NCBI GenBank assembly: GCA_031267645.1
Contig: JAIRYW010000047.1
Span: 1-64,000 of the forward strand
Direction of reading: 5' to 3'
DNA: 64,000 bases
DNA from: Propionibacteriaceae bacterium
GTDB taxonomy: Bacteria > Actinomycetota > Actinomycetes > Propionibacteriales > Propionibacteriaceae
Shown here: one piece after another, positions 26,480 to 39,326 of the stretch
Layout of the letters: the number at the start of each line of letters is the position of its first letter
Position numbering within the stretch: the stretch's first letter is position 1
Program-made: the position numbers and the translations under genes
The notes under the pieces: model-generated
The model's input: the letters and a program-made list of their open reading frames with translations, nothing else
The model's database searches: none
Told to the model about the DNA's origin: nothing

Positions 26480-27847
26480 TCAACCCCGCCAGGCCCAAAC
26501 GGCCTCGCGAATGCCTTCGGACACCGTCGGATGGGGGAAGACGACCTGTTTGAGGTCGTCCACGCTGAATTCGTTCTCCAGGACGCCGGCCACGCCCCAG
26601 ATCGTCTCGGGGGCGTAGGGGCCGATCATCTGCAGGCCGCGGATCAAACCGGAGTCCGGCTCCGCCACCAGTTTGACCACGCCGGAGGCGCTCAAGCCGT
26701 GTTCGGCCACGAAACGTCCGGACAGGGTCAACGGCACCGTGACGCAGCGTACAGTCAATCCTCGCTTGACGCATTCCCGCTCGGTCAGGCCGACTCCGGC
26801 CGCCTCCGGGTGGCCGTAAACAGCCCAGGGGATGGTGTCCCAACGCATGGTCTGGCCCCGCTCCCGACTGGACGGGTCGATGATCAAAGCGGCGGCGATC
26901 TCGCCCATCCGGTAGGCGGCGTGGGCCAGCAGGCTACGGCCGGTGATGTCGCCCACGGCCCAGACCCCGGGCTGATTGGTGCGCATGGTGTCGTCCACCG
27001 TGACGCCTCGGCTGGTCAGTTCCAAGCCGCTCAGCTCGGCCCCCCAGCCCTCCAGACAAGGCCGCCGACCGACCGCCATCAAAACCAGGTCGGCCTCGAC
27101 CCGGACCCGCTGGCCGCTGGCGTCGGTGTAGACCACCGAACTGCCCTCGACCTGCTCCACCCGGCACTTGAGATGGAATTGGACCTTAGGCATGGCCCGG
27201 CGCAGTTTGGCGGCCACGTCGGCGTCCATGAAGGGCAGGATCTCGTCCAGCATCTCGATCACCTCGACCTGGACGCCGAGGTCGGCGAATAGGCTGGCGA
27301 ACTCGACCCCGATGACGCCCCCGCCGATGACGGCCAAGCGTTGGGGCGGGCTGGCCACTGACAGCAAGGCGGTCGAATCCAGCACCAGCGGGTTGCCTTC
27401 GACCCCCGGGATGGGCGGCATCGAGGGCAGCGAGCCGGTGGCGACGATGATGTGGTCGGCCTGATGGCGCTGGCCGGCCAGCTCGATCACTCCGGGAGCG
27501 ACGAAACGAGCCGCTTGGGGCGCCACCTCGACCTTCAGCCGACGTAGCTTGGCCCCCACGCCGGAGACCAGGGTTTGGACGGTCTTGTCCTTCCAGGCCT
27601 GGATCTGGCCCCAGTCGTAGCGCACGGCCTCGGCGCTGACGCCGAAGGTGGTCGAATCGAGGGCTTGGCGGTAGAGCTTGGCCGAGTTGAGCAAGCTCTT
27701 GGTCGGGATGCAGCCGACGTTCAAGCAGGCCCCGCCCAAGGCGTTCGGCTCGGCCAGCAGAACGCGGCGGCCGGCCTCGGCCAGACGCTCGGCCGCGATG
27801 TAGCCACCCGGCCCTCCGCCGACGACGATGACGTCGTGATCAGTCAT
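26480..27847 (-). CDS. lpdA: Dihydrolipoamide dehydrogenase (E3)
   Basis: A 455-residue flavoprotein that reoxidises dihydrolipoyl-E2 and makes NADH. FAD-binding [13 protein letters not shown] is at 8-20, the redox disulfide C41/C46 is in [14 protein letters not shown], the NAD-binding [10 protein letters not shown] is near 178, and [15 protein letters not shown] is near 300. The C-terminal dimerisation domain carries HPTVSEG with the active-site His. It has no N-terminal lipoyl domain. It sits between E2 and E1 with gaps of 13 and 35 bases, so it is dedicated to this complex. Confidence 0.95.
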
Positions 27848-27860
27848 TGGTCAAGCCCTC

Positions 27861-29516
27861 TCAGTCCAGTACGGCGATGTCGATGTCGGCCACCAGGGCC
27901 ACCAGATCAGCCAGGAAGCGGGCCGCGTCGGCCCCGTCCACGACGGCGTGGTCGACCGTCAAGGAGAAGCCGATGCGCTGCTCCACGGCCAGTCCGCCGT
28001 CGGGCCGGATGGTCGGTTGGGGCCGGATCGCGTTGACGCCCAAGATGGCGACCTGGGGACTGTTCAGGATCGGGGTGAAACTCTCGATGCCGAAGGCCCC
28101 CAGATTGGTGACGGTGAAAGTGGCCCCGGACAGCAGATCGGGGCTGACCGAGCCGGATTGGGCCTTGGCGGCCAGGTCCTTGGTCTGACTGGAGAACTGG
28201 CGCAGACCCAGGCGGGAGGCGAAGCGGACGGTCGGCACCAGCAGACCGCGCGGGGTGTCGACGGCCAGACCGAGATGGACCTCGGCGTAACGGCTCAGCA
28301 CCCCGTCGGCCAGGGTGGCGTTGAGTCCGGCGTGCTGGCGGGCGGTCTGGACGGCGGCGTAGGCCACCAGGTCGCCGATGGTGACGCCGTTCATGCCCAG
28401 GACCGGATCGGACCGCTTCAGGCGGGCCCGCAAGTTGAGCAGGTTGGTGGCGGGGGCGCTGCTGTCGAAGGTCAGCTGGGCGTGGTTCGACAGCGAGGCC
28501 AGCATCCGGCCGGCCACCAGCTGACGGATGCCGCGCAGAACGGTCTGGTCGACCGGCCCGGGGAAGCTGGGGTCGTCGATCGGCCCGGCCAGAGCCGGGT
28601 GGGTGGCGGAGATGGCGCCACTGGTCGGGACTGGCTCCGGGGGCAGCGGCTGGTCCGGCGGCGGGGGCGCAGCCGGGGCCGGGGGCGCGCTGGGCTGATC
28701 CGGCTCGGCCTGGCTGCGGGCGGTCTGCCCGATCAAGTCGGCCAGTCGGACCCGGCCGCCGATGCCGCTGCCGCTGTCCGGCCGACCGGCCTCGGGTTGG
28801 GACTGAGTCTGGACGGCCCGGGTCGTCCCGGTCGGGCCCGACGGTTCGGCCGGCGCCGAGTCGTCCACCAGCGGTTCCGGCGCCACCGGCTCCGGGGCCG
28901 GGTCCGGCGTCACCAGGCTGGAGGCGGCGGCCGAGCCTTGGCCGGCGGCGGCCGCCAGCACGTCGCGCTCGATCACCCGGCCCCGTGGTCCGCTGCCGGT
29001 CAGGCTGTCGATGGCGATGCCGTAGACGGCGGCCAGCTCACGCGCCCGGGGACTGGCCGCTTTGGGTCCGGTCTGGCCCATCCCAACCGCCGGGGCGAAC
29101 GGGAGCGACGATCCGACGGCGGGAGCGGGCGGGGGCAAAGCCTCCGGCACGGCCACCGGGACTGGTTCGGGCACAGCCACCGCGATGGGCTCGGGCAGAG
29201 CCACCGCGGCGGGTTCTGAGTCGGTCGGAGCCACCGCGGCGGGCGGCTCGGCGCCGGTCCAGGCCGAGATGTCGTCGCCCGGCTGGCCGATGACGGCCAG
29301 AGGAGCCTTGACCGGCACTTCGTCGCCGACCTCGGCCAAACGGGCCAGCAGCAGGCCGCTCAGTCCGGCCGGCACTTCCATGGCCGATTTGTCGGTCTCG
29401 ATCTCGCACAGCACCGTGCTGGGGTCGACCGGCTGGCCGACTTCGACCCGCCAGGCGGTGATGAGGCAGGACTCGACGGTGTTGCCCAGCTGGGGCATCA
29501 CCAGAACTTCGGCCAT
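27861..29516 (-). CDS. Dihydrolipoamide acyltransferase (E2) of a 2-oxo acid dehydrogenase complex
   Basis: A 551-residue E2 core protein. One lipoyl domain occupies residues 1-80, with the modified Lys43 in IETDKSAMEVPAG. A Pro/Ala/Val-Pro-Glu repeat linker (about 95-135) leads to the peripheral-subunit-binding domain at about 152-187 (SPRARELAAVYGIAIDSL), then another Pro-rich linker, then the catalytic domain from about 320 with DHAVVDGADAARFL near 520. It moves the acyl group made by E1 to CoA. The start at 29516 matches the family N-terminus (MAEVLVMPQLGNTVES). It is in line with E3 and E1. Confidence 0.93.
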   Translation of the reverse strand: MAEVLVMPQLGNTVESCLITAWRVEVGQPVDPSTVLCEIETDKSAMEVPAGLSGLLLARLAEVGDEVPVKAPLAVIGQPGDDISAWTGAEPPAAVAPTDSEPAAVALPEPIAVAVPEPVPVAVPEALPPPAPAVGSSLPFAPAVGMGQTGPKAASPRARELAAVYGIAIDSLTGSGPRGRVIERDVLAAAAGQGSAAASSLVTPDPAPEPVAPEPLVDDSAPAEPSGPTGTTRAVQTQSQPEAGRPDSGSGIGGRVRLADLIGQTARSQAEPDQPSAPPAPAAPPPPDQPLPPEPVPTSGAISATHPALAGPIDDPSFPGPVDQTVLRGIRQLVAGRMLASLSNHAQLTFDSSAPATNLLNLRARLKRSDPVLGMNGVTIGDLVAYAAVQTARQHAGLNATLADGVLSRYAEVHLGLAVDTPRGLLVPTVRFASRLGLRQFSSQTKDLAAKAQSGSVSPDLLSGATFTVTNLGAFGIESFTPILNSPQVAILGVNAIRPQPTIRPDGGLAVEQRIGFSLTVDHAVVDGADAARFLADLVALVADIDIAVLD

Positions 29517-29557: not shown

Positions 29558-31219
29558 TCAGAGAGCCGGAACGGTCCGCAGCAGGACTTCCTCGGCTTGT
29601 TTGGTCCACTGACCGTCGACCATGGCGGCGGCCACCTCGGGCAGTCGCTGAGGCAGGTCGACCAGACGGATCAGCCCCATGTCGCCCAGCGCCGGGTAGA
29701 CCACGATCTTGCCCTGGCTGGTGCGGTCGATGACGGAGGCGATGGCGGCCGGCACACCGTCCAGTCCGCTGATGGCGTCGAGCGAGATGTTGGTGTCGAC
29801 CACCCCGTCCTCGATCCGCCCCACCACGGTGGCGACGTCGACGATGCGCGAGCCCGAGGTGCCGACCAGATAGACGTGACGCTCCACGATGGCGTCCAGG
29901 TCGAGCCCGGCCATGGTGCCGACGGCGAAGCCGGCGAAGGCGTTGACGACCGAGCCGGGCCCGGCCCAAGCGATGGCCTGGGCCACCAAGGGGCCGGCCG
30001 GCACCATCAGGGCGACGTAGTCGTAAGCCTGCTCCGGCAGGGGTTGGCTGGTCGAGTTCCAGACCCGGGCCTTGGCCCCGGTGCGGGCCGCCAGCGGGGC
30101 CAGAACCTGCTCCAGGTGGGCCAGCCGCTCGTCATTGACGTCGACCGCGTCCAAGCTGACGTCCGGCACCCCCAAGGTGATGGCGCGGACGGCGTGCATC
30201 AGGCCCATCGGACCGGCCGCCCCGATCACCGCCACCCGGTCGCCCGGGCCGAGGTCGCAACTGGCCGGCACGGCGTCGTAGCCCGGCTGGGGCCGATGGC
30301 CGGTGCTGCCGGTGTAGCGGATCAGGTCGTAGTGGACCCGGCCGACGTCGATCTGGACCGGCCGGCCGAAGCTGGCCCCGCCCGTCACCAGGTTCATCAG
30401 TCCGCCGCTGGCCAGGCGCGGCCCCAAGGCCTCCACCAGGTCCGGATCGGAGCCGAAATAGACGATGTCGTCGAACTGGCCGGTGACCTGGTCGACCGAG
30501 TCCAGAGCCTGAGTGGTCGGATCCGAGCCGGGTAGGCCGACGGTGACCTGGCGGGCCGGCTGGGCCTGGGCCAGCAACTCATCCAAGCCTTCGACCTGGG
30601 CGCCGGCGTCCGCCACCACCAGCAACGAGCCGCCCTGGACCGGAGTGCGGCGTTCGCCCCAGGCGTACGAGGCCTCGACGCAGGCCCAAGGCTCGGCCAA
30701 AGCGATGGCGGAGGCCGAGGGGCGCTCGGAGACCGGGATCAAGAAGCGCTCACCGGTCTCAGGTTCGATCACGACCCGCTCGTCCAAGATGGTGTACTCG
30801 GCCAGGCCGCCGTCGATGGTGTAGCCGAAGGAGACATTGGAGGCCGCCGTCGGCAGATGCCGGTAGTCGGTCTGGATGGCCACCCGCTCCCCCACCTGGT
30901 GGCGCCGGACCTGGTCGCCCACCGCCACGATGCGGGCCACCGGCTCGTGTCCGGGCGTGACCGGCCGGTCTCCCGGAGCGTACCCGGCCACGGTGGCCAA
31001 CTCGGCTGGGGTCAGGCCGCCCACGGCCTGGCTCTTACGGGGGTGCTGGCTGAAGGCGTGCAGCAACTTGGTGTCGGAGAAGCAGATGCCGCAGGCCTCC
31101 ATGCGCAATAGCAACTGGGTCGGCCCCAACGGCGGCAGCGGTTTGGCCGGATCGATCTCGATCTGATCGGGGCCGGTGAAGACGACGGCCCGCTGGGTGG
31201 TGGGAATGTGATCTGTCAT
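29558..31219 (-). CDS. Zinc-type medium-chain dehydrogenase with two Rossmann-like domains
   Basis: A 553-residue MDR-superfamily protein, about 200 residues longer than a normal zinc alcohol dehydrogenase. The GroES-like catalytic domain spans 10-190, with the zinc ligands C46 (ACGICFSD) and H91/E92 (PGHEP). The four-Cys structural zinc lobe is missing. Residues about 196-305 look like a first, degenerate Rossmann unit (LLVVADAGAQVEG, no GxGxxG). Residues 326-480 form a second with GDRVAVIGAAGPMGL (327-340). It lies between the rhamnulose aldolase fusion (16-base gap) and E2 (41-base gap), so it probably acts on an intermediate of the same route, perhaps a lactaldehyde- or propanediol-like compound. 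The substrate is not established. Confidence 0.75.
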   Translation of the reverse strand: MTDHIPTTQRAVVFTGPDQIEIDPAKPLPPLGPTQLLLRMEACGICFSDTKLLHAFSQHPRKSQAVGGLTPAELATVAGYAPGDRPVTPGHEPVARIVAVGDQVRRHQVGERVAIQTDYRHLPTAASNVSFGYTIDGGLAEYTILDERVVIEPETGERFLIPVSERPSASAIALAEPWACVEASYAWGERRTPVQGGSLLVVADAGAQVEGLDELLAQAQPARQVTVGLPGSDPTTQALDSVDQVTGQFDDIVYFGSDPDLVEALGPRLASGGLMNLVTGGASFGRPVQIDVGRVHYDLIRYTGSTGHRPQPGYDAVPASCDLGPGDRVAVIGAAGPMGLMHAVRAITLGVPDVSLDAVDVNDERLAHLEQVLAPLAARTGAKARVWNSTSQPLPEQAYDYVALMVPAGPLVAQAIAWAGPGSVVNAFAGFAVGTMAGLDLDAIVERHVYLVGTSGSRIVDVATVVGRIEDGVVDTNISLDAISGLDGVPAAIASVIDRTSQGKIVVYPALGDMGLIRLVDLPQRLPEVAAAMVDGQWTKQAEEVLLRTVPAL

Positions 31220-31235
31220 CTTAGGAACCTCAACC

Positions 31236-33212
31236 TCAACTCATCATGATCTGGCCGCCGGTCACGGGGACGGCCTGACCGGTCTCGTACTGCTGGGCGA
31301 CGATGTAGAACAGGGCCTCGGCCACATCAGCGGGCGTGCAACCACGCCCCATCGGCACCTGGGCCTCATAGTAGGCCCTGACGTCGGCCAGACTGGTCGC
31401 GCCCGGCACTTTGCCGGCCCTCAAATATTGCACGAACAAGCCCCGTTCGGGGTCCGACCAGAGCGGTCCGTCCAGGAAATTGCCGGGGCAGATGGCGTTG
31501 ACCTTGACGCCCGACTCGACCAACTCCAAGGCGAAGGACTGGGTCAGACCGATGCCGCCGAATTTCGAGCCGGCGTAGGCGAAATTACGCTTCGAACCGG
31601 CCAGGCCGGACTTGGAGTTGATCTCGACGATGTCGAACATCAGATCCGGGCGGGCCCGGTGTTGGGCCGCCATGATCGGCGCCACCGCCTGGACGCCGAG
31701 GAAGTAGCCCCGGTAGTTGATGGCCGTGACCAGGTCGAAGTCGTCCGGCCGCAGGTCGGTGACGGCCCCGGCCCGGGCCACGCCGGCGTTGGAGACGAAC
31801 AGGTCGACCCCGCCGTACCAACTCAAGATCTGTTCCCAAGCCGTCCGCTGCGAGGCCGCGTCGGCCACGTCCAGGGCGACCGCTCGGGCCCGTCCGGGGC
31901 CGTGCCGCCCGCTCAAACGGTCCGCTTCGGCCTGGGCCAGGCCTTCGTTCAAGTCGGCCAATACGACATGGGCGCCGGCCTCGACCGCCGCCGTGGCCAG
32001 ACCCAGGCCGAAGCCCTGGGCGGCGCCCGTCACCACCACCACTCGGCCGGCCAGACGTCCCGGCGAGCCGCGCCCGGTCAAACCGCGCCGGTAGGCCTCG
32101 GCCTCCCAGTGCTCGATGAACCCAACCTCCTGCTTCGTCATGGTGCGGGGCTGGCCCAGCCGGGCCGCGTCGCGGCTGACCTGGAGGGAGTCGATGAAGA
32201 CGTCCAAAGAGTTACGGGCCGAGGCCCAGTCCGTCCCCGCCGCGAAAGCCACCAGGCCCGGGGCCACCACCACGGTGGGCAGATGGCCGTGCCGTTCGAG
32301 GTAGGCATCGAGGGCCGAACGGGCGGCCGCGGCGATCTGGGTCAGATCGGCCGGCGGCTCGACCAGGCAGGGCAGGGCCCCGGCGTAGACGATCTGGTCC
32401 GGGATCAGCGGACCTTGGCTGACCATGGGACGTCCCGGCTGGGTCTCGGCCTGGACCAGCTGGCCGCTGTCCGAGGTCACCACCGCCAGATTCCCCGTCG
32501 GGCTGAGCCAGCCCCGCAGCAGCGGAGCCAGTGCGGCCGTCAGCGCCGCCACCCGCTCGGCCGGGACCGGGGCGACCGTCGGCGCCGGCACGGCCGCGAT
32601 GGCGGCGCTGACGGTGGCGGTCAAATGCTCGACCAACTCGATCAGCTCCTCCTCGCTGTCGGCCGCCGCGATGACGCCGTGGTTGCGCAGCAGGGTCAAG
32701 CCGGGGGCGGGCTGGCCGGTGCGGGCGCTGTGCTGGCGCCGAGCCTGGTCGATCAGCCGGGCCAGGGGCACGCCGGGGTCGATGTAGTCGACCACCACGG
32801 CTTGGTCGCCCAAGAGCCGGGCGGCCAACTGGTGGGCGTCCTGGTTGCAGGTCACGGCGTTGGCCGCCAGGGGGTGCAGGTGCAGCACCAAAGCCTCTGG
32901 CAGCAGGGCGTGGAACAGGATCTCGACGCTGGGCCGCCGACCCTCGGCCGGACCCACCCGGGCCCGTTCGGCCGCCCACCGGACCGGATCGCCCTCGACC
33001 GGGGCGGTGGAGTGCAAGGCCTCCAACAAGACGTCGATCCGCAGTGGCACCAAGTCCTCCGCCTCCAGCGTGGCCAAGGCGATGCCGGAGGGTTTGATGT
33101 GGAGCACGCCGTCCAATTTGACGGAGGCGTTGCCGCCTCCAGCACGGGCGAACTCGGGACCGCCGAAGCGGTGGCAGATCCGGATCAGGGCGTCGGTCAA
33201 CGGGTCGGACAT
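31236..33212 (-). CDS. rhaEW: Bifunctional rhamnulose-1-phosphate aldolase / short-chain dehydrogenase (RhaEW-type)
   Basis: A 658-residue fusion. The N-terminal class II aldolase domain (1 to about 390) shows GGGNASVKLDG, the metal-ligand LHLHPLA and LLRNHGVIAA. The C-terminal SDR domain (about 410-658) shows VVVTGAAQGFGLGLA, the SNAG block and catalytic YAGSK. Characterised proteins of this architecture cleave L-rhamnulose-1-phosphate to dihydroxyacetone phosphate and L-lactaldehyde and oxidise the aldehyde to lactate with NAD. The start at 33212 overlaps the preceding gene by 16 bases. The flanking rhaI and rhaB support rhamnose; fucose is a less likely alternative. Confidence 0.9.
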   Translation of the reverse strand: MSDPLTDALIRICHRFGGPEFARAGGGNASVKLDGVLHIKPSGIALATLEAEDLVPLRIDVLLEALHSTAPVEGDPVRWAAERARVGPAEGRRPSVEILFHALLPEALVLHLHPLAANAVTCNQDAHQLAARLLGDQAVVVDYIDPGVPLARLIDQARRQHSARTGQPAPGLTLLRNHGVIAAADSEEELIELVEHLTATVSAAIAAVPAPTVAPVPAERVAALTAALAPLLRGWLSPTGNLAVVTSDSGQLVQAETQPGRPMVSQGPLIPDQIVYAGALPCLVEPPADLTQIAAAARSALDAYLERHGHLPTVVVAPGLVAFAAGTDWASARNSLDVFIDSLQVSRDAARLGQPRTMTKQEVGFIEHWEAEAYRRGLTGRGSPGRLAGRVVVVTGAAQGFGLGLATAAVEAGAHVVLADLNEGLAQAEADRLSGRHGPGRARAVALDVADAASQRTAWEQILSWYGGVDLFVSNAGVARAGAVTDLRPDDFDLVTAINYRGYFLGVQAVAPIMAAQHRARPDLMFDIVEINSKSGLAGSKRNFAYAGSKFGGIGLTQSFALELVESGVKVNAICPGNFLDGPLWSDPERGLFVQYLRAGKVPGATSLADVRAYYEAQVPMGRGCTPADVAEALFYIVAQQYETGQAVPVTGGQIMMS

Positions 33213-34411
33213 GGCTCCTCCTGAGCTTCGAGAATGGCCCGCCCTTGTTCCACCAGACGGCTGCGCTCCGAGCCCCGGGCGATCAGACGGCCCTGGCCAT
33301 CGACGTAGCCGGGCTGGCCCTGGCTGGTGCGGGCGGCGTGGGCCGCCACCAGGCAGGTGGCCTCGTAGAAGGCTTGACGGGATTGGGCCGAGACCGGCCC
33401 ATCGAGACAGAACGGGTCCAGCGGGACCCGATCGGCGGTGTTGTGCTCGGTGCCGGCCATGACGATCAGGCCGGCGGCTTGGAAGGCCTCGACGTAGCGG
33501 TCCACCACCGCTCGGCGGTTGCGCAGCGGGATCAACTCGGCCGCCCACACCCCCCGGTCGACCAGGGCTTGGGCCAGCCGTTCGGGCGAGGCCTCGAAGG
33601 GACAGACCGGATCGACTCCGTCGGCCAGGGTCGGGTAGCAGGGGATGCCGCCGCGGTCCAAGACGTAATCGAAGGCGGCTTCGAAGTCGAGCGGCACCTC
33701 AGCCACGAAACCGGGCGTCGACGCCTTCATCAGGCGGGCCCGCAACTCGCCTTGGAGGGCCACCGGATCGTCCAGGTCGACCTGACTGGGGCCGCCGTAG
33801 GCCCGTTCCAGGACCGCCGCCCGCCGCGGCCGGTCCAACTCGGACAGGGCCTGTTGCAGGGCCAAGGCGATGTGGCGCTCTTGCAGCGAGACCCATTCCA
33901 GGGGGACCTGGGCCCGTTCCGCCACCTGGGCGGCGATGGTCTGAGCCGACCAGGCGCAGTCCAGACCGGCCCCGGACAGATGGTCGGACAACCGCTCGAC
34001 CATCCGCTCGGCCCGCTGGTCGTTGCCGCGGCGAATCTGCTCGGCCGTGGCCTGGGCCCGATCCGACAGCGGCCGCGCCGGATCGATGCCCTTGCCGCAG
34101 AAGTACATCCGCCCCGGGTTGGCCGGGTCGTTGACCCGGATCCCGGCGGCGGCCAGGTCGGAGGCCAAGGTGATGAACTCGAGCCCGAAGAGGGGCGTCA
34201 GGCCGTTGGCCCGGGCCAGCCGGCCGAATTCGGCGTAGACCCGCTGATCGTAGAAATTGGAGATGCCGAGGGCCAGTAGACCCTGGTGGCGGGCCGCCTC
34301 GACCGCCTGGCCCAGGTTGGCGAAGGCGGAGAAATTGGGCGGCAGATGGACGTGGGTGTTGACCGCCGGCGGCCGGGACCCGGCCGGGCTCGACTCGACG
34401 CCTAATTCCAT
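33197..34411 (-). CDS. PHP-like putative metal-dependent hydrolase in the rhamnose operon
   Basis: A 404-residue protein starting with a PHP-like metal motif, NTHVHLPPNFSAF (H20, H22), followed by GLLALGISNFYD and, late, AGTEHNTADRVPLDP. These features suggest a TIM-barrel metal enzyme of the PHP/amidohydrolase type. I know no assigned function for such a protein in rhamnose catabolism. Its ATG lies ten bases inside rhaI and its end overlaps the aldolase fusion by 16 bases, so it is translated with them. A lactonase, phosphatase or aldose-processing step are all possible. Confidence 0.65.
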   Translation of the reverse strand: MELGVESSPAGSRPPAVNTHVHLPPNFSAFANLGQAVEAARHQGLLALGISNFYDQRVYAEFGRLARANGLTPLFGLEFITLASDLAAAGIRVNDPANPGRMYFCGKGIDPARPLSDRAQATAEQIRRGNDQRAERMVERLSDHLSGAGLDCAWSAQTIAAQVAERAQVPLEWVSLQERHIALALQQALSELDRPRRAAVLERAYGGPSQVDLDDPVALQGELRARLMKASTPGFVAEVPLDFEAAFDYVLDRGGIPCYPTLADGVDPVCPFEASPERLAQALVDRGVWAAELIPLRNRRAVVDRYVEAFQAAGLIVMAGTEHNTADRVPLDPFCLDGPVSAQSRQAFYEATCLVAAHAARTSQGQPGYVDGQGRLIARGSERSRLVEQGRAILEAQEEPCPTR

Positions 34412-35562
34412 GAGGCCTGCACGCCGCCGATCCGCTCCGCCTCGACTCGCTCCTGGTAGCCGCTGCCTCTGAAGGCCGCCACTGGATCGCCCGGCTGGCC
34501 GCGGCTGACCCGCAGGTCGGCCAGATCGGACCGCACGTCGGTGTAGAAGGCGTCCATGAAGATGGCGTTGGCGGCCAAGACGTCGCCGGCGGCTTGGGCT
34601 TCGGCCAAGGCCGCCCGGTCCAGCAGCAGGGCCCGGGCCAGCATCTCCTGGACGTTGAGGACGGAACGGATCTGACCCTCGATGTGGTTCTCGATGTTGT
34701 GGCACTGGTCCAGCATCAAGGCCACGTCCGGGTTGGGGTAGCCACCGCCGCGCACCACTTCGACCAGGATGCGGAAGAGCTGGAAGGGATCGGCCGCTCC
34801 CACCATCAGGTCGTCGTCGGCGTAGAAACGGGAGTTGAAGTCGAAGGACCCCAGCCGTCCCATCCGCAGCAGCTGGGCCACGATGAACTCGATATTGGTG
34901 CCGGGGGCGTGGTGGCCGGTGTCGAGGCAGACCATGGCCTTGGGCCCCAGGGCCTGGCACTGGATCAAGGAGGTGCCCCAGTCCGGCACGTCGGTGTGAT
35001 AGAAGGCGGGCTCGAAGAATTTGTACTCCAGCACCAGGCGCTGGTCTTCGTCCAGGGCGGCGTAGATCTCGGCCAAGGACTCGGCCAAGCGCTCCTGGCG
35101 GGACCGGATGTCGTCCTGGCCGGGATAGTTGGAGCCGTCGGCCAACCAGATCTTGAGGTCGCGCGAACCGGTCTGACGCATGATCTCGACACAGTCTAGG
35201 TTGTGCCGTACGGCCTTGGCCCGGACTCGGGGGTCGAAGTGGCACAGGCTGCCGAACTTGTAGTCGGTGTCCTGGAAGGTGTTGGAGTTGATGGTGCCCA
35301 GGCGCACTCCCTGGTCCCGGGCGTACTGGGCCAGGTCCGCGAAATCGTCCACCTGGTCCCAGGGGATGTGCAAGGCCACCACCGGCGCCAAGCCGGTCAG
35401 GGCGTGGACTTGGGCGGCGTCGGCGATCTTCTCCTTGGGGTCGCGCGGCGTGCCGGCTTGGGGAAAGACCTTGAAGCGCGTGCCCGAGTTGCCGTAGGCC
35501 CAGGACGGGACTTCGATGCCGAGGCCGCTGAGGGCTTCGGCGACATCAGAGAATGAGGGCAT
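34402..35562 (-). CDS. rhaI: L-rhamnose isomerase (RhaI type)
   Basis: A 386-residue TIM-barrel isomerase converting L-rhamnose to L-rhamnulose, of the Pseudomonas/Bacillus RhaI type rather than E. coli RhaA. The metal-site carboxylates and histidines are in LEYKFFEPAFYHTD, CLDTGHHAPGTN and DQCHNIENH; FDFNSRFYADDD follows. AAGGAG precedes the ATG at proper spacing. It is the first gene of the minus-strand operon, with a promoter containing -35 TTGACG, -10 TAGAGT and a LacI-type site just after. Confidence 0.92.
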   Translation of the reverse strand: MPSFSDVAEALSGLGIEVPSWAYGNSGTRFKVFPQAGTPRDPKEKIADAAQVHALTGLAPVVALHIPWDQVDDFADLAQYARDQGVRLGTINSNTFQDTDYKFGSLCHFDPRVRAKAVRHNLDCVEIMRQTGSRDLKIWLADGSNYPGQDDIRSRQERLAESLAEIYAALDEDQRLVLEYKFFEPAFYHTDVPDWGTSLIQCQALGPKAMVCLDTGHHAPGTNIEFIVAQLLRMGRLGSFDFNSRFYADDDLMVGAADPFQLFRILVEVVRGGGYPNPDVALMLDQCHNIENHIEGQIRSVLNVQEMLARALLLDRAALAEAQAAGDVLAANAIFMDAFYTDVRSDLADLRVSRGQPGDPVAAFRGSGYQERVEAERIGGVQASWN

Positions 35563-35741: not shown

Positions 35742-37223
35742 ATGACCACCGCTTCTTTCGCCGCCGTCGACCTAGGGGCCACCAGCGGCCGCGTCATCTG
35801 GGGCCGCTTGGAGAATGACGCCTTCCAACTGGAGCCGGTCCACCGCTTCACCACGCCGGCCTTCCAATCCGACCGACAGCCGCCCCACTGGCATTGGCGG
35901 GCCGATCGGCTGCGCCAGGAGATCGCCACCGGACTGGCCCTGGCCCGGGATCGGGCCGGGCGCTTGGACGGCGTCGGGGTCGACACCTGGGGGGTCGACT
36001 ACGGCCGCCTGAGGGCCGACGGCAGCCTGTTGGAGCCGCCCTTCAACTATCGCGACGACCGTACCGTCGGGGTCCCAGAGCGTTTCTTCGCCGACTTCCC
36101 AGCCCAACGGCTATACGGTCTGACCGGCCTGCAGACCATGCCCATCAACACCATCTTCCAGTTGGTGGCCCAAGCCGACGATCCGGCCTGGGGCCAGGTC
36201 GACCGTCTGCTGCTGCTGCCCGACCTCTTCAACTACTGGCTGAGCGGCGTCCAGGCCACCGAGTTGACCATCGCCTCCACCAGCGGTCTGCTCGACGTGG
36301 CCGAGCGCGACTGGTCGGATGTCCTGCTGGAGCACCTGCGTCAGCGCCACGGCCTCGACCTGTCCGACCGTCTGGCCCCCATCGTCCAACCCGGCACGGT
36401 GCTCGGCCCGCTCGACCCCGCCCTCGGGGCCGGCCGGCCGCCGGTGGTGGCGGTGGCCTCCCACGACACCGCCTCGGCCATCGTCGCCATCCCCACCGCC
36501 CACCAGGACTTCGCCTACATCTCCTCCGGCACCTGGTCCCTGGTCGGTTTGGAGCTGTCCCAGCCGATCACCTCGCCCGAGTCCGGCCAAGCCAATTTCA
36601 CCAACGAGCTGGGGCTGGACGGGACGGTCCGCTACCTCCAGAACGTGATGGGCCTGTGGGTCCTGAACCAGACCTTGGAGGATTTCCAACGCCTCGGCTC
36701 GCCCCAACAGCTGGGTCCGCTGTTGGAGGAGGCGGCCGGGGTCGAACCGCTGCGCTGTGTGATCGACATGTCGGACGACCGTCTGCGCGCGCCCGGGGGG
36801 ATGGTCGGACGCTTGACCGGTCTGGTCCAGGAGTCGGGCCAAGCCGTGCCCGAGTCGCCGGCGGCTTGGACCCGAGCCATCTTGGACTCTTTGGCCCTGG
36901 CCTACCGCCGTTCCATCCGCCAAGCCCAGGCTTTGTCCGGCCGCGCCGTCGAAGTGGTCCACGTGGTGGGCGGCGGCAGCCAAAACCAGTTGCTCTGTCA
37001 GTTGACGGCCGAGGCCCTCGGACGGCCGGTCCTGGCCGGTCCGGCCGAAGGCACCGCCCTGGGCAATCTGCTGGTGCAAGCCCGGGCCACCGGCCGGCTC
37101 AGCGGCGACCTCTTCGAGCTCCGTCGGGTGGCGGCGGCCAGTTGCTCGGTGACGACCTATCGACCCGGCCGGCTGGGCCTGTCCGAGACGCGCTGGGACG
37201 AGGCCGAGGGCCGCTTGGCTTGA
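35742..37223 (+). CDS. rhaB: Rhamnulokinase
   Basis: A 493-residue FGGY-family sugar kinase that phosphorylates L-rhamnulose at O1 with ATP. The N-terminal phosphate motif is VDLGATSGRVIWGRL. The substrate-binding block PPHWHWRADRL and GVDTWGVDYGRL are characteristic of RhaB. The second phosphate motif ISSGTWSLVGLEL lies near 262, and VHVVGGGSQNQLLCQLTAEA near 408 is the adenosine site. The start at 35742 follows GAAAGGGGA. It is divergent from rhaI and ends five bases from the convergent thrC. No rhamnose transporter or rhamnosidase lies in the window. Confidence 0.95.
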   Translation: MTTASFAAVDLGATSGRVIWGRLENDAFQLEPVHRFTTPAFQSDRQPPHWHWRADRLRQEIATGLALARDRAGRLDGVGVDTWGVDYGRLRADGSLLEPPFNYRDDRTVGVPERFFADFPAQRLYGLTGLQTMPINTIFQLVAQADDPAWGQVDRLLLLPDLFNYWLSGVQATELTIASTSGLLDVAERDWSDVLLEHLRQRHGLDLSDRLAPIVQPGTVLGPLDPALGAGRPPVVAVASHDTASAIVAIPTAHQDFAYISSGTWSLVGLELSQPITSPESGQANFTNELGLDGTVRYLQNVMGLWVLNQTLEDFQRLGSPQQLGPLLEEAAGVEPLRCVIDMSDDRLRAPGGMVGRLTGLVQESGQAVPESPAAWTRAILDSLALAYRRSIRQAQALSGRAVEVVHVVGGGSQNQLLCQLTAEALGRPVLAGPAEGTALGNLLVQARATGRLSGDLFELRRVAAASCSVTTYRPGRLGLSETRWDEAEGRLA

Positions 37224-37227
37224 CCGG

Positions 37228-38658
37228 TCAGACGGCCAGTCGCCGCAGGACGCATTTGAGCTGGTCCAGCCCGCCGGTCAACTCGATGGCGTGGGAGGGA
37301 GCGGTTAGGACGTTGGCGAAGCGGTCCGGGACGGGGGCGGGAAAGCCGACCGCCTCGACCATGGTGTCGGCGAATTTGATCGGCAGGGCGGTCTCCAAGC
37401 AGACCATGGGCTCCGGCCCGACCAAACGTCGGCCGGCCGTCACGCCGTCGGCGGTGTGGGGATCGATCAGTCGGCCGCAGTCGCGCCAAGTGGCGGCGAT
37501 GGCGGCCAGGCGGTCGGCGTGGGTCGAGCGGGAGGCCCAGAAGCCGAAATCATCCCGGGAACGGGCCACCGCACCTCGTCCGGACAGGTCGATCTGACCG
37601 CTGGTCGGCAGGACCTGGCCGAACAGGCGGGCCACCTCCTGGGCGTCGCCGTCCAGCAGGTCGAAGACGAAGCGCTCGAAGTTGGAGGCTTTGGAGATGT
37701 CCATCGAGGGGCTGGAGGTGGCCACGGTCTGGGCGGACGAACGCACCCGGTAGACCCCGGAGTCGAAGAACTCGGCCAGGACGTCGTTCTCGTTGGTGGC
37801 CAGGACCAAGCGGTCGATGGGCACCCCCAATCGCCGCGCGATGTGGCCCGAGACGATGTTGCCGAAATTGCCGGTCGGCACCGCCAACGAGACCGGCTGG
37901 TCGTCGCTTCGGCTGACCTTCAACCAGCAGGCGACGTAGTAGACCACCTGGGCGGCCAGCCGGGCCCAGTTGATCGAGTTGACCGCGCCGATGTCCAGAT
38001 CGGCTTTCAGCTCGGCGTCGGCGTTGACCGCCTTGACCAGGTCCTGACAGTCGTCGAAGGAGCCCGGCACGGTCAGGTTGACGATCCCGGGGTCGTCCAG
38101 GCCGTACATCTGGCCGCGCTGGAAAGCGGTCATGCGGCCCTGGGGGCTGAGCATGAAGACCTTGACCCGGCTCTGGCCCAGCATGGCCTGTTCGGCCGCC
38201 GAGCCAGTGTCGCCGGAGGTGGCGCCCAAGATGGTGAGACGGCGGTCGCGCCGAGTCAGCTCGTACTCGAACAATTCGGCCAGCAGCTGCATGGCCAAGT
38301 CCTTGAAGGCGGCGGTCGGGCCGTTCGACAGGTGGGCCAACCGGAGCTGGCCGTCCAAGGCCGAGACCGGCACGATGTCGGGGCCGCCGAATTTCTCCGT
38401 CGTGTAGGCGCGCTGGCAGATCCGCTCTAAATCGGCCGCCGGGATGTCGTCGCAGAACAGGCCCAAGACGCGCTGGGCCAGCCCGGCGTAGCCCCGCTGG
38501 GCCAAGACGCGCCGCAACTCGGCTAAATCGGAGCGGTCCAGCCGGGGCCAGCTGACCGGCCAGTAGAGGCCGCCGTCCGGGGCCAGACCCTCCAACAGGA
38601 TGTCGCAGAAACGGGCCTGGCCCGGGTCGTCGGCCCGCCGGGTGGAACGGTATCTCAC
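37228..38658 (-). CDS. thrC: Threonine synthase
   Basis: A 476-residue PLP enzyme converting O-phosphohomoserine to threonine, of the long (yeast/E. coli-like) class. The PLP lysine is in [12 protein letters not shown] and the phosphate-binding loop is [30 protein letters not shown] follows. It begins with GTG at 38658, overlapping the rpe stop by four bases (GTGA); a longer upstream frame is out of family. It ends almost against rhaB. Confidence 0.94.
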
Positions 38659-39326
38659 GGCTGTTCCCGGTGGGCCAGCCCGGCCGCTCGACGCAGCCGC
38701 TCCACCATGACGTCGGGTTGGTCGGCTTTGAAGACGGCGGTCCCGGCCACGAAACTGTCGGCGCCGGCGGCGGCCGCCCGTTCGATGGTTTCGAGGGAGA
38801 CGCCGCCGTCGATCTGGACCGCCAAGGCCAGGTCCTGGGCCCGGGCCAAGCGACGCAGCGCCTTGATCTTGGGCAGCACCAGGTCGAGGAAGCCTTGGCC
38901 GCCGAAGCCGGGCTCGACCGTCATCAACAACACCATGTCGAATTGGCCCAAGATGGGCCCGACCGCTTCGACCGCGGTGGCTGGGTTCAAGCCGATGGCC
39001 GCCTTGGCGCCCAAGCGCCGCAGTTCGCGGGCCAGACGCACCGGAGCCTGGGCCGCCTCCAAGTGAAAGGTGACCGAGGCGGCGCCGGCCTCGGCGTAGG
39101 CCGGGGCCCAGCGGTCGGGGTCCTCGATCATGAGGTGGAGGTCGAGCGGCAACTCGGTGCACCGTTTGATGGCCTCCACCACCGGCAGGCCGAGGGTCAG
39201 GTTGGGCACGAAATGGTTGTCCATGACATCGACGTGCAAGGCGTCGGCCGACGGCACACGGGCGATCTCATCGGCCAACCGGGAGAAATCGGCGTTCAAG
39301 ATGCTGGGAGCGATGGTGATGGGCAC
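38655..39326 (-). CDS. rpe: Ribulose-phosphate 3-epimerase
   Basis: A 223-residue TIM-barrel enzyme that interconverts ribulose-5-phosphate and xylulose-5-phosphate in the pentose phosphate pathway. [15 protein letters not shown] is the N-terminal signature. The metal ligands occur in [24 protein letters not shown] and [10 protein letters not shown], with the second catalytic Asp in QIDGGVS. It lies in the rsmB-rpe-thrC run on the minus strand, overlapping thrC by four bases. Confidence 0.96.

Follow-up and report, generated by a model that had tools for sequence, protein, structure and literature searches.

Two tandem Rossmann domains, one of them a pseudo-cofactor domain, in a family of MDR enzymes

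The window considered here, that is the whole stretch of 64,000 nucleotides of a Propionibacteriaceae bacterium that was analysed, encodes an MDR enzyme in which a GroES-like catalytic domain is followed by two Rossmann domains in tandem (Table 1). The first of these (R1) is a pseudo-cofactor domain homologous to the second (R2), which has the features of an active NAD(P) domain. With a probability of about 0.6, the enzyme would be a zinc- and NAD(P)-dependent dehydrogenase of sugar alcohols or ketose phosphates related to SorE/YggP, with a cofactor domain that was duplicated long ago and with R1, the altered copy, acting as an internal partner, so that the chain would be a pseudo-dimer. MDRs are among the best-studied enzymes and build their dimer via the cofactor domain; the branch carrying R1 would be a natural experiment, in which a subunit interface has been replaced within one chain. 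A literature search in a single library found no earlier description of an MDR whose cofactor domain is duplicated.

Table 1. Features of the dehydrogenase and of its operon in the window.
Feature	Residues	Coordinates	Strand	Basis or remark
MDR gene with two tandem Rossmann domains	553 aa	29558..31219	minus	ATG start
GroES-like catalytic domain	8-195	30635..31198	minus	Pfam ADH_N 3.3e-14
R1, pseudo-cofactor Rossmann domain	196-305	30305..30634	minus	AlphaFold, Foldseek/VIA
R1 motif D291-x-G293-R294-x-H296-Y297-D298-x-x-R301	291-301	30317..30349	minus	named positions identical in 79/79
R2, active NAD(P) Rossmann domain	327-455	29855..30241	minus	predicted structure and conservation
R2 glycine loop G333-A-A-G-P-M-G339	333-339	30203..30223	minus	kept in 79/79
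C-terminal tail	511-549	29573..29689	minus	common to SorE/YggP-type relatives (alignment)
Class II aldolase-SDR fusion, the SDR domain akin to sorbitol-6-phosphate dehydrogenase		31236..33212 (scanned 31236-33209)	minus	
PHP-like metal-dependent phosphoesterase homologue		33197..34279 (piece; start codon further upstream)	minus	likeness to the PHP family of sister operons
L-rhamnose isomerase RhaI		34402..35562	minus	TIGR02635 618 bits, above cut-off
Rhamnulokinase-like FGGY kinase, divergent		35742..37223	plus	TIGR02627 403.5 bits, below cut-off 528
E2 acyltransferase of a 2-oxo acid dehydrogenase complex		27861..29516	minus	Pfam 2-oxoacid_dh, Biotin_lipoyl, E3_binding
E3 dihydrolipoyl dehydrogenase		26480..27847	minus	TIGR01350 above cut-off
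E1, alpha/beta fused	~819 aa	23985..26444	minus	start resembles that of a scanned homologue (L088:2913-5366)

Domain layout and active site

The reading frame of 553 residues, which the first-pass annotation had described as a zinc dehydrogenase without giving a strand, is confirmed and lies on the minus strand. The GroES-like domain carries C46 and H91-E92, as had been noticed, and with them E176; all four residues are identical in 79 of 79 homologues, and E176 is likely the third zinc ligand, judged by its place in the 'EP' helix. Cysteines occur only at positions 43, 46, 180, and 321; the four-Cys structural-zinc lobe is thus absent, in agreement with the first reading of the sequence. This lobe is optional among MDRs, and many polyol MDRs have none. 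The GroES-like domain and R2 together retain the complete MDR active site.

In the Pfam scan of the whole protein, only the GroES-like ADH_N family scores above its cut-off (53.5 bits vs 23.5), and the NCBIfam models give low partial scores, far below every cut-off; the best of them, IolM (scyllo-inosose 3-dehydrogenase), reaches 39.1 bits against an equivalog cut-off of 450. Names of the L-threonine and IolM types were dropped on account of these scores. Among PDB sequences, no chain matches the whole protein, the best stretches being either the GroES part or the R2 part.

Ordinary MDRs had been given a span of 340-380 residues; solved MDR chains found here mostly have 330-404 residues, and the nearest single-copy relatives, of the SorE/YggP type, already have 421-432. 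The additional length of the window protein therefore consists of R1 (about 110-120 residues) and of the tail shared with SorE/YggP.

R1 is an MDR-type Rossmann domain

Two successive alpha/beta segments had been proposed from the sequence, and AlphaFold places them in the full chain at about residues 196-305 (R1) and 327-455 (R2), with a pLDDT of 93.8 and a pTM of 0.91 from an alignment of 80 rows. Folded alone (residues 190-318), R1 is again a Rossmann domain (pLDDT 96.1, pTM 0.90), in the order strand-helix-strand-strand-strand-helix-strand-helix-strand-helix, so that the check proposed with the first-pass annotation, a structure prediction showing two Rossmann folds, came out in favor of the duplication. 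The alignments supplied to AlphaFold still contained a chimeric homologue (L101, see below) as one row; a frame of 826 residues (L096) was left out of the family alignment.

Structure comparisons place R1 among the MDRs. In the Foldseek search with R1 alone, all 50 of the 50 matches listed are MDR enzymes, the best being 3gfb at E 1.1e-5. With VIA, the best of 50 chains listed out of 1000 aligned is 1f8f (Z 11.6, rmsd 2.6, 112 residues aligned), the match covering residues 186-316 of that chain, which form its cofactor domain; the rows listed place R1 on MDR cofactor domains. For the full chain, the best among the VIA matches listed is 4c4o_B (Z 29.5, rmsd 2.6, 321 residues aligned), which spans model residues 4-509 and corresponds to the GroES-like domain and one Rossmann domain; no solved chain among the 50 listed in the full-chain structure searches spans the two Rossmann domains together. 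Sequence searches are blank at this point, as R1 of the window alone has no match in the Pfam scan, and a profile built from 80 R1 sequences finds no chain among PDB sequences at E up to 10; R1 can thus be recognized only through its fold or when members of the family are compared with one another. Taken together, R1 is a Rossmann domain of the MDR type and a homologue of R2. One of its strands (288-291) is present in the full-chain model and absent when R1 is folded alone, as expected if it is paired with R2.

Complementary losses in the two copies

Conservation was counted over 79 proteins, the chimeric L101 being left out. The loop G333-x-x-G-x-x-G339 of R2 is present in all of them; R1 of the window has no glycine loop, and a G-x-G-x-x-G-like string occurs in R1 of only 3 of the 79, so the first-pass annotation was right to see this loop in the second segment only. 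The region of R1 in which a nucleotide loop would be expected (residues 196-247) has a mean conservation of 0.41, and residues 205-247 vary greatly in length. At the other end of R1, D291, G293, R294, H296, Y297, D298, and R301 are identical in 79/79. In five distant homologues, the D, R, H, and Y of this motif are kept, position 298 is D or E, and R301 is lost; the H-Y pair is also kept in five SorE-type proteins, and R2 has no H-Y at the matching place. In almost every member, R1 is thus devoid of the nucleotide loop but retains the D-x-G-R-x-H-Y-D segment, which R2 has lost; the two copies have therefore degenerated in complementary ways.

Origin by tandem duplication

The likeness of the two domains is strong at the level of profiles. 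With distant homologues added (about 20 main-branch and five distant sequences), hhalign aligns R1 with R2 at a pairwise E of 8.9e-11 over 123 columns; an earlier comparison with close homologues alone was weak (probability 8%, E 0.0043). R1 aligns with SorE-type Rossmann domains at E 7.8e-11, with those of other MDRs at 0.007, and with a GroES control at 0.53; R2 aligns with the SorE-type profile at E 3.6e-29. As R1 is kept in 78 other loci and in five distant homologues, and as its E-value against R2 is 8.9e-11 compared with 0.53 for the control, this likeness is not due to chance. The same relation is seen from single proteins: the one cofactor domain of a relative's single-Rossmann MDR aligns to both copies in the window, and one SorE-like query matches three distant reading frames twice in tandem.

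A tree built from 34 domain sequences unites R1 in one clade of 13 rows with support 100/98, which includes both the main and the distant branch (its L120 row is very long-branched); the duplication is therefore older than the split of these branches. R2 does not form one confident clade in this tree (26% of bootstraps) and does not separate from SorE. The best explanation is a single, ancient tandem duplication of the cofactor domain. The copy itself is real, old, and widespread within a narrow family; structure, profiles, and tree thus all support the internal duplication to a pseudo-cofactor domain that had been proposed.

Distribution

Among 57 related genomes (the source genome included), nine have a full-length homologue, the eight others being 55-88% identical to the window protein. 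A scan with one genome per species confirmed 97 loci, of which the best 80 were kept, nearly all of them full length; the 79 homologues that were aligned are 46-88% identical to the window protein, except for the chimeric L101 among them (37%). These counts are not independent of the related-genome set, since some of the genomes may be the same (L022 and G017, for example, look alike). The loci come from Propionibacteriaceae, from Actinomycetaceae and further actinobacterial records, and from Chloroflexi MAGs. When the phylum was sampled evenly, 2 of 396 genomes matched at E 1e-20, the source genome being one of them; the family is therefore patchy. Distant homologues of equal length share about 30% identity; they are encoded in three genomes from a different family of the same order, in one genome elsewhere in the phylum, and on a Deinococcus plasmid.

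The chimeric frame belongs to Actinomyces bouchesdurhonensis (L101:7053-8915) and joins a piece of E3 to an MDR that sets in at residue 247; a deletion or a fault of the assembly could have produced it. Ten loci also encode a second MDR of ordinary length (about 340 residues, for example L043:9692-10726), which in nine of them is the next gene downstream of the duplicated one; two of the loci with a second MDR, L043 and L057, are from Chloroflexi.

R1 as a proposed internal partner

MDR dimers pair strands across their interface at the place that corresponds to strand 288-291 of R1, and in ADH residues 306 and 309 reach the pocket from the partner subunit. Mapped by hand from the motif and the VIA alignment ranges, the R1 motif matches about residues 305-314 of horse and other vertebrate ADH. 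Met306 and Leu309 are named as ADH substrate-site residues in the part of the source drawn on here (PMC4028059), where their partner origin is not stated. The invariant residues of R1 thus cluster at the ADH dimer-contact site, which argues for a catalytic or structural role within the enzyme and not for docking. In the simplest reading of the model, and the one that fits best, R1 would sit in the partner's place and lend its polar segment to the pocket formed by the GroES-like domain and R2. The packing of R1 on R2 would resemble that of the partner subunit's Rossmann domain in ordinary MDR dimers, and the D/R/H/Y/D segment of R1 would complete the substrate pocket within one chain. The substrate, judged by gene context, would be a polyol or ketose phosphate, probably mannitol-1-phosphate in the distant branch and a phosphate derived from a 6-deoxyhexose in the branch of the window.

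Other roles for R1 have to be weighed against this. The first-pass annotation had suggested a docking or regulatory module, which would tether the MDR to the aldolase-SDR or to E1/E2/E3, and the neighborhood lends this some appeal: among 74 loci in which neighbors were clustered (of 79 tried), 52 have an SDR gene as the immediate upstream neighbor in the same orientation, and within six reading frames of the MDR the E2 and E1 families are each found in 42 and E3 in 34. R1 is, however, conserved to the same degree in loci that lack the complex, for example on the Deinococcus plasmid (SDR-MDR-kinase) and in mannitol-PTS loci, and 12 of 80 loci have no homologue of the aldolase-SDR, E2, or E3 in the DNA searched (some flanks being short); we consider this role quite improbable. 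An allosteric site for a second ligand, a sugar phosphate or nucleotide, is also unlikely: Rossmann folds often bind nucleotides, and the invariant Arg, His, Tyr, and Asp of R1 could bind phosphate, but the half of R1 that would hold the nucleotide loop is the least conserved (mean 0.41), the invariant part being the interface half.

That R1 is a functionless relic of evolution would agree with the lost glycine loop and with the variable length of residues 205-247, yet seven residues are invariant in 79 proteins and R1 has been retained down to about 30% overall identity, which makes a relic very hard to credit. The idea that R1 is an extension of the GroES-like domain and not a Rossmann fold is contradicted by the model of R1 alone, by the Foldseek and VIA matches, and by the profile comparison; no evidence in its favor was found, and it can practically be dismissed.

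The operon and its module

On the minus strand of the window, the genes follow in the order RhaI, PHP-like protein, aldolase-SDR fusion, MDR, E2, E3, E1. In tblastn searches of the 80 loci with these neighbors, the aldolase-SDR (or its SDR part) is found in 67, E2 in 54, E3 in 47, the PHP-like protein in 35, the RhaB-like kinase in 25, and RhaI in 14, in flanks of differing length and with a few of the matches away from the MDR. The MDR gene belongs to a module with the PHP protein, the SDR, and an extra E1/E2/E3 complex, which in the window adjoins rhamnose genes and in Actinomycetaceae fucose genes. An AceE-type E1 (PF17831) is encoded elsewhere in 4 of 4 genomes searched, including the source genome and Schaalia odontolytica; the complex of the operon is therefore additional to a separate AceE-type pyruvate dehydrogenase, and the possibility that it is the cell's only pyruvate dehydrogenase was rejected.

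The PHP-like family, directly upstream of the SDR gene, is conserved (33197-34279 in the window; L088:5526-6845) and has no significant Pfam or NCBIfam match. Its two groups, from the window and from the sister operons, are homologous (hhalign 98%); one sister-operon member matches the phosphoesterase PDB 3e0f, and the piece in the window has no match in its own search.

Fucose operons and a possible route without aldolase

The operon of S. odontolytica begins with a sugar ABC transporter, an L-fucose isomerase (938 bits against a cut-off of 850), an FGGY kinase, a LacI regulator, a FucU-like protein (assigned by eye, with no NCBIfam match), and a DeoR-like regulator, and continues E2-E3-E1-PHP-SDR-MDR, the SDR having no aldolase domain. 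Among 16 named genomes, which were chosen for carrying the MDR and are not a random sample, 11 encode an L-fucose isomerase that precedes the MDR by about 12 kb on the same strand of one contig. No class II aldolase (PF00596) lies within 100 kb on that contig in any of the 11; genome-wide, it is absent in two, Pauljensenia hongkongensis (a chromosome record) and Schaalia cardiffensis (a draft), and the other nine have one or two PF00596 genes elsewhere. In all, 4 of 17 genomes searched, the source genome included, gave no PF00596 match; the family was detected in 12 of 14 controls. The Actinomycetaceae loci L136, L088, L070, and L087 have fucose operons with isomerase and kinase, E1/E2/E3, PHP, SDR, and MDR, and no linked class II aldolase. 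The fucose operons of these oral and animal-associated Actinomycetaceae pose the question of how fuculose-1-phosphate is cleaved.

In the sorbose pathway, SorE is followed by sorbitol-6-phosphate dehydrogenase. By a similar sequence of steps, the MDR could commit L-fuculose-1-phosphate and L-rhamnulose-1-phosphate to a route without aldolase by catalyzing its first reaction, a proposal that we regard as doubtful. The MDR would reduce the ketose-1-phosphate to a 6-deoxyhexitol phosphate, with R1 shaping the pocket for phosphorylated deoxy-sugars; the SDR would oxidize the carbinol beside the methyl group to a 1-deoxyketose phosphate (CH3-CO-CHOH-R), and the dedicated E1/E2/E3 would cleave this to acetyl-CoA and a tetrose phosphate, as acetoin dehydrogenase does with acetoin. 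The only difference between the two ketose phosphates is at C4, the carbon that would end up as the aldehyde; one module could therefore serve both. Against this route, the fusion in the window keeps its aldolase domain, with E, H-x-H, and N-H-G motifs that look intact by eye, and the nearest solved relatives of E1 are pyruvate and branched-chain E1. Another weak point is the tetrose, which by a derivation done by hand is predicted to be D-threo or L-erythro and not D-erythrose-4-phosphate. The conventional alternative is aldol cleavage, with lactaldehyde then passing through lactate and pyruvate to acetyl-CoA. A literature search in a single library returned no report of an aldolase-free fucose or rhamnose route.

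Mannitol-PTS loci of the distant branch

In the distant-branch loci scanned (L129 and L132), the MDR lies near PTS genes. L129 has a mannitol PTS transporter (NF011663 681 bits, above cut-off) with an IIA protein, and also a PtsI-like protein, a fructose PTS, and a 1-phosphofructokinase-like kinase; in L132, a 1-phosphofructokinase-like kinase, PtsI, and a PRD-type regulator are near the MDR. Mannitol_dh (PF01232) is found in 0 of 4 distant-branch genomes; it was detected in 7 of 14 controls, and the source genome of the window has one. The mannitol-PTS context and the absence of PF01232 suggest that the MDR of this branch is a mannitol-1-phosphate dehydrogenase, which may form fructose-1-phosphate.

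Relation to known systems

The closest likeness is to SorE (L-sorbose-1-phosphate reductase) and E. coli YggP, which share with the window protein a GroES-like domain with a C-H-E-E pattern, a GGAGPMG-type loop, an H-Y motif before the last strand, and the C-terminal tail; unlike it, they have one Rossmann domain and about 400-432 residues, and the identity, in pieces, is 22-29%. From these sequence features, the window protein appears to belong to a sister family of SorE/YggP and not to be a SorE itself. The source genome also encodes a single-Rossmann paralogue of the SorE/YggP type with 421 residues (G000:C54; L002:1477-2742, minus strand); a protein 52% identical to this paralogue (L103) is 62% identical to a plasmid-borne yggP product and 39-41% to sorE products. 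Classical zinc MDRs (butanediol, sorbitol, and threonine dehydrogenases) have the same overall fold, with VIA Z-scores of about 27-29.5 over about 320 residues among the matches listed, and a single Rossmann domain compared with two in the window protein.

The aldolase-SDR of the window has a counterpart in RhaEW, described in the part of the source drawn on here as a bifunctional rhamnulose-1-phosphate aldolase/lactaldehyde dehydrogenase (PMC3870299); the domain order is the same, and both lie in a rhamnose operon. That part makes no mention of an MDR with a duplicated domain. The window fusion scores 266 bits with TIGR02632, against a cut-off of 568, and the SDR part of the fusion is also similar to sorbitol-6-phosphate dehydrogenase (211 bits against a cut-off of 307). 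Beyond the divergent kinase gene, a reading frame at 37228-39162 (minus strand) has a C-terminal part that looks threonine synthase-like by eye.
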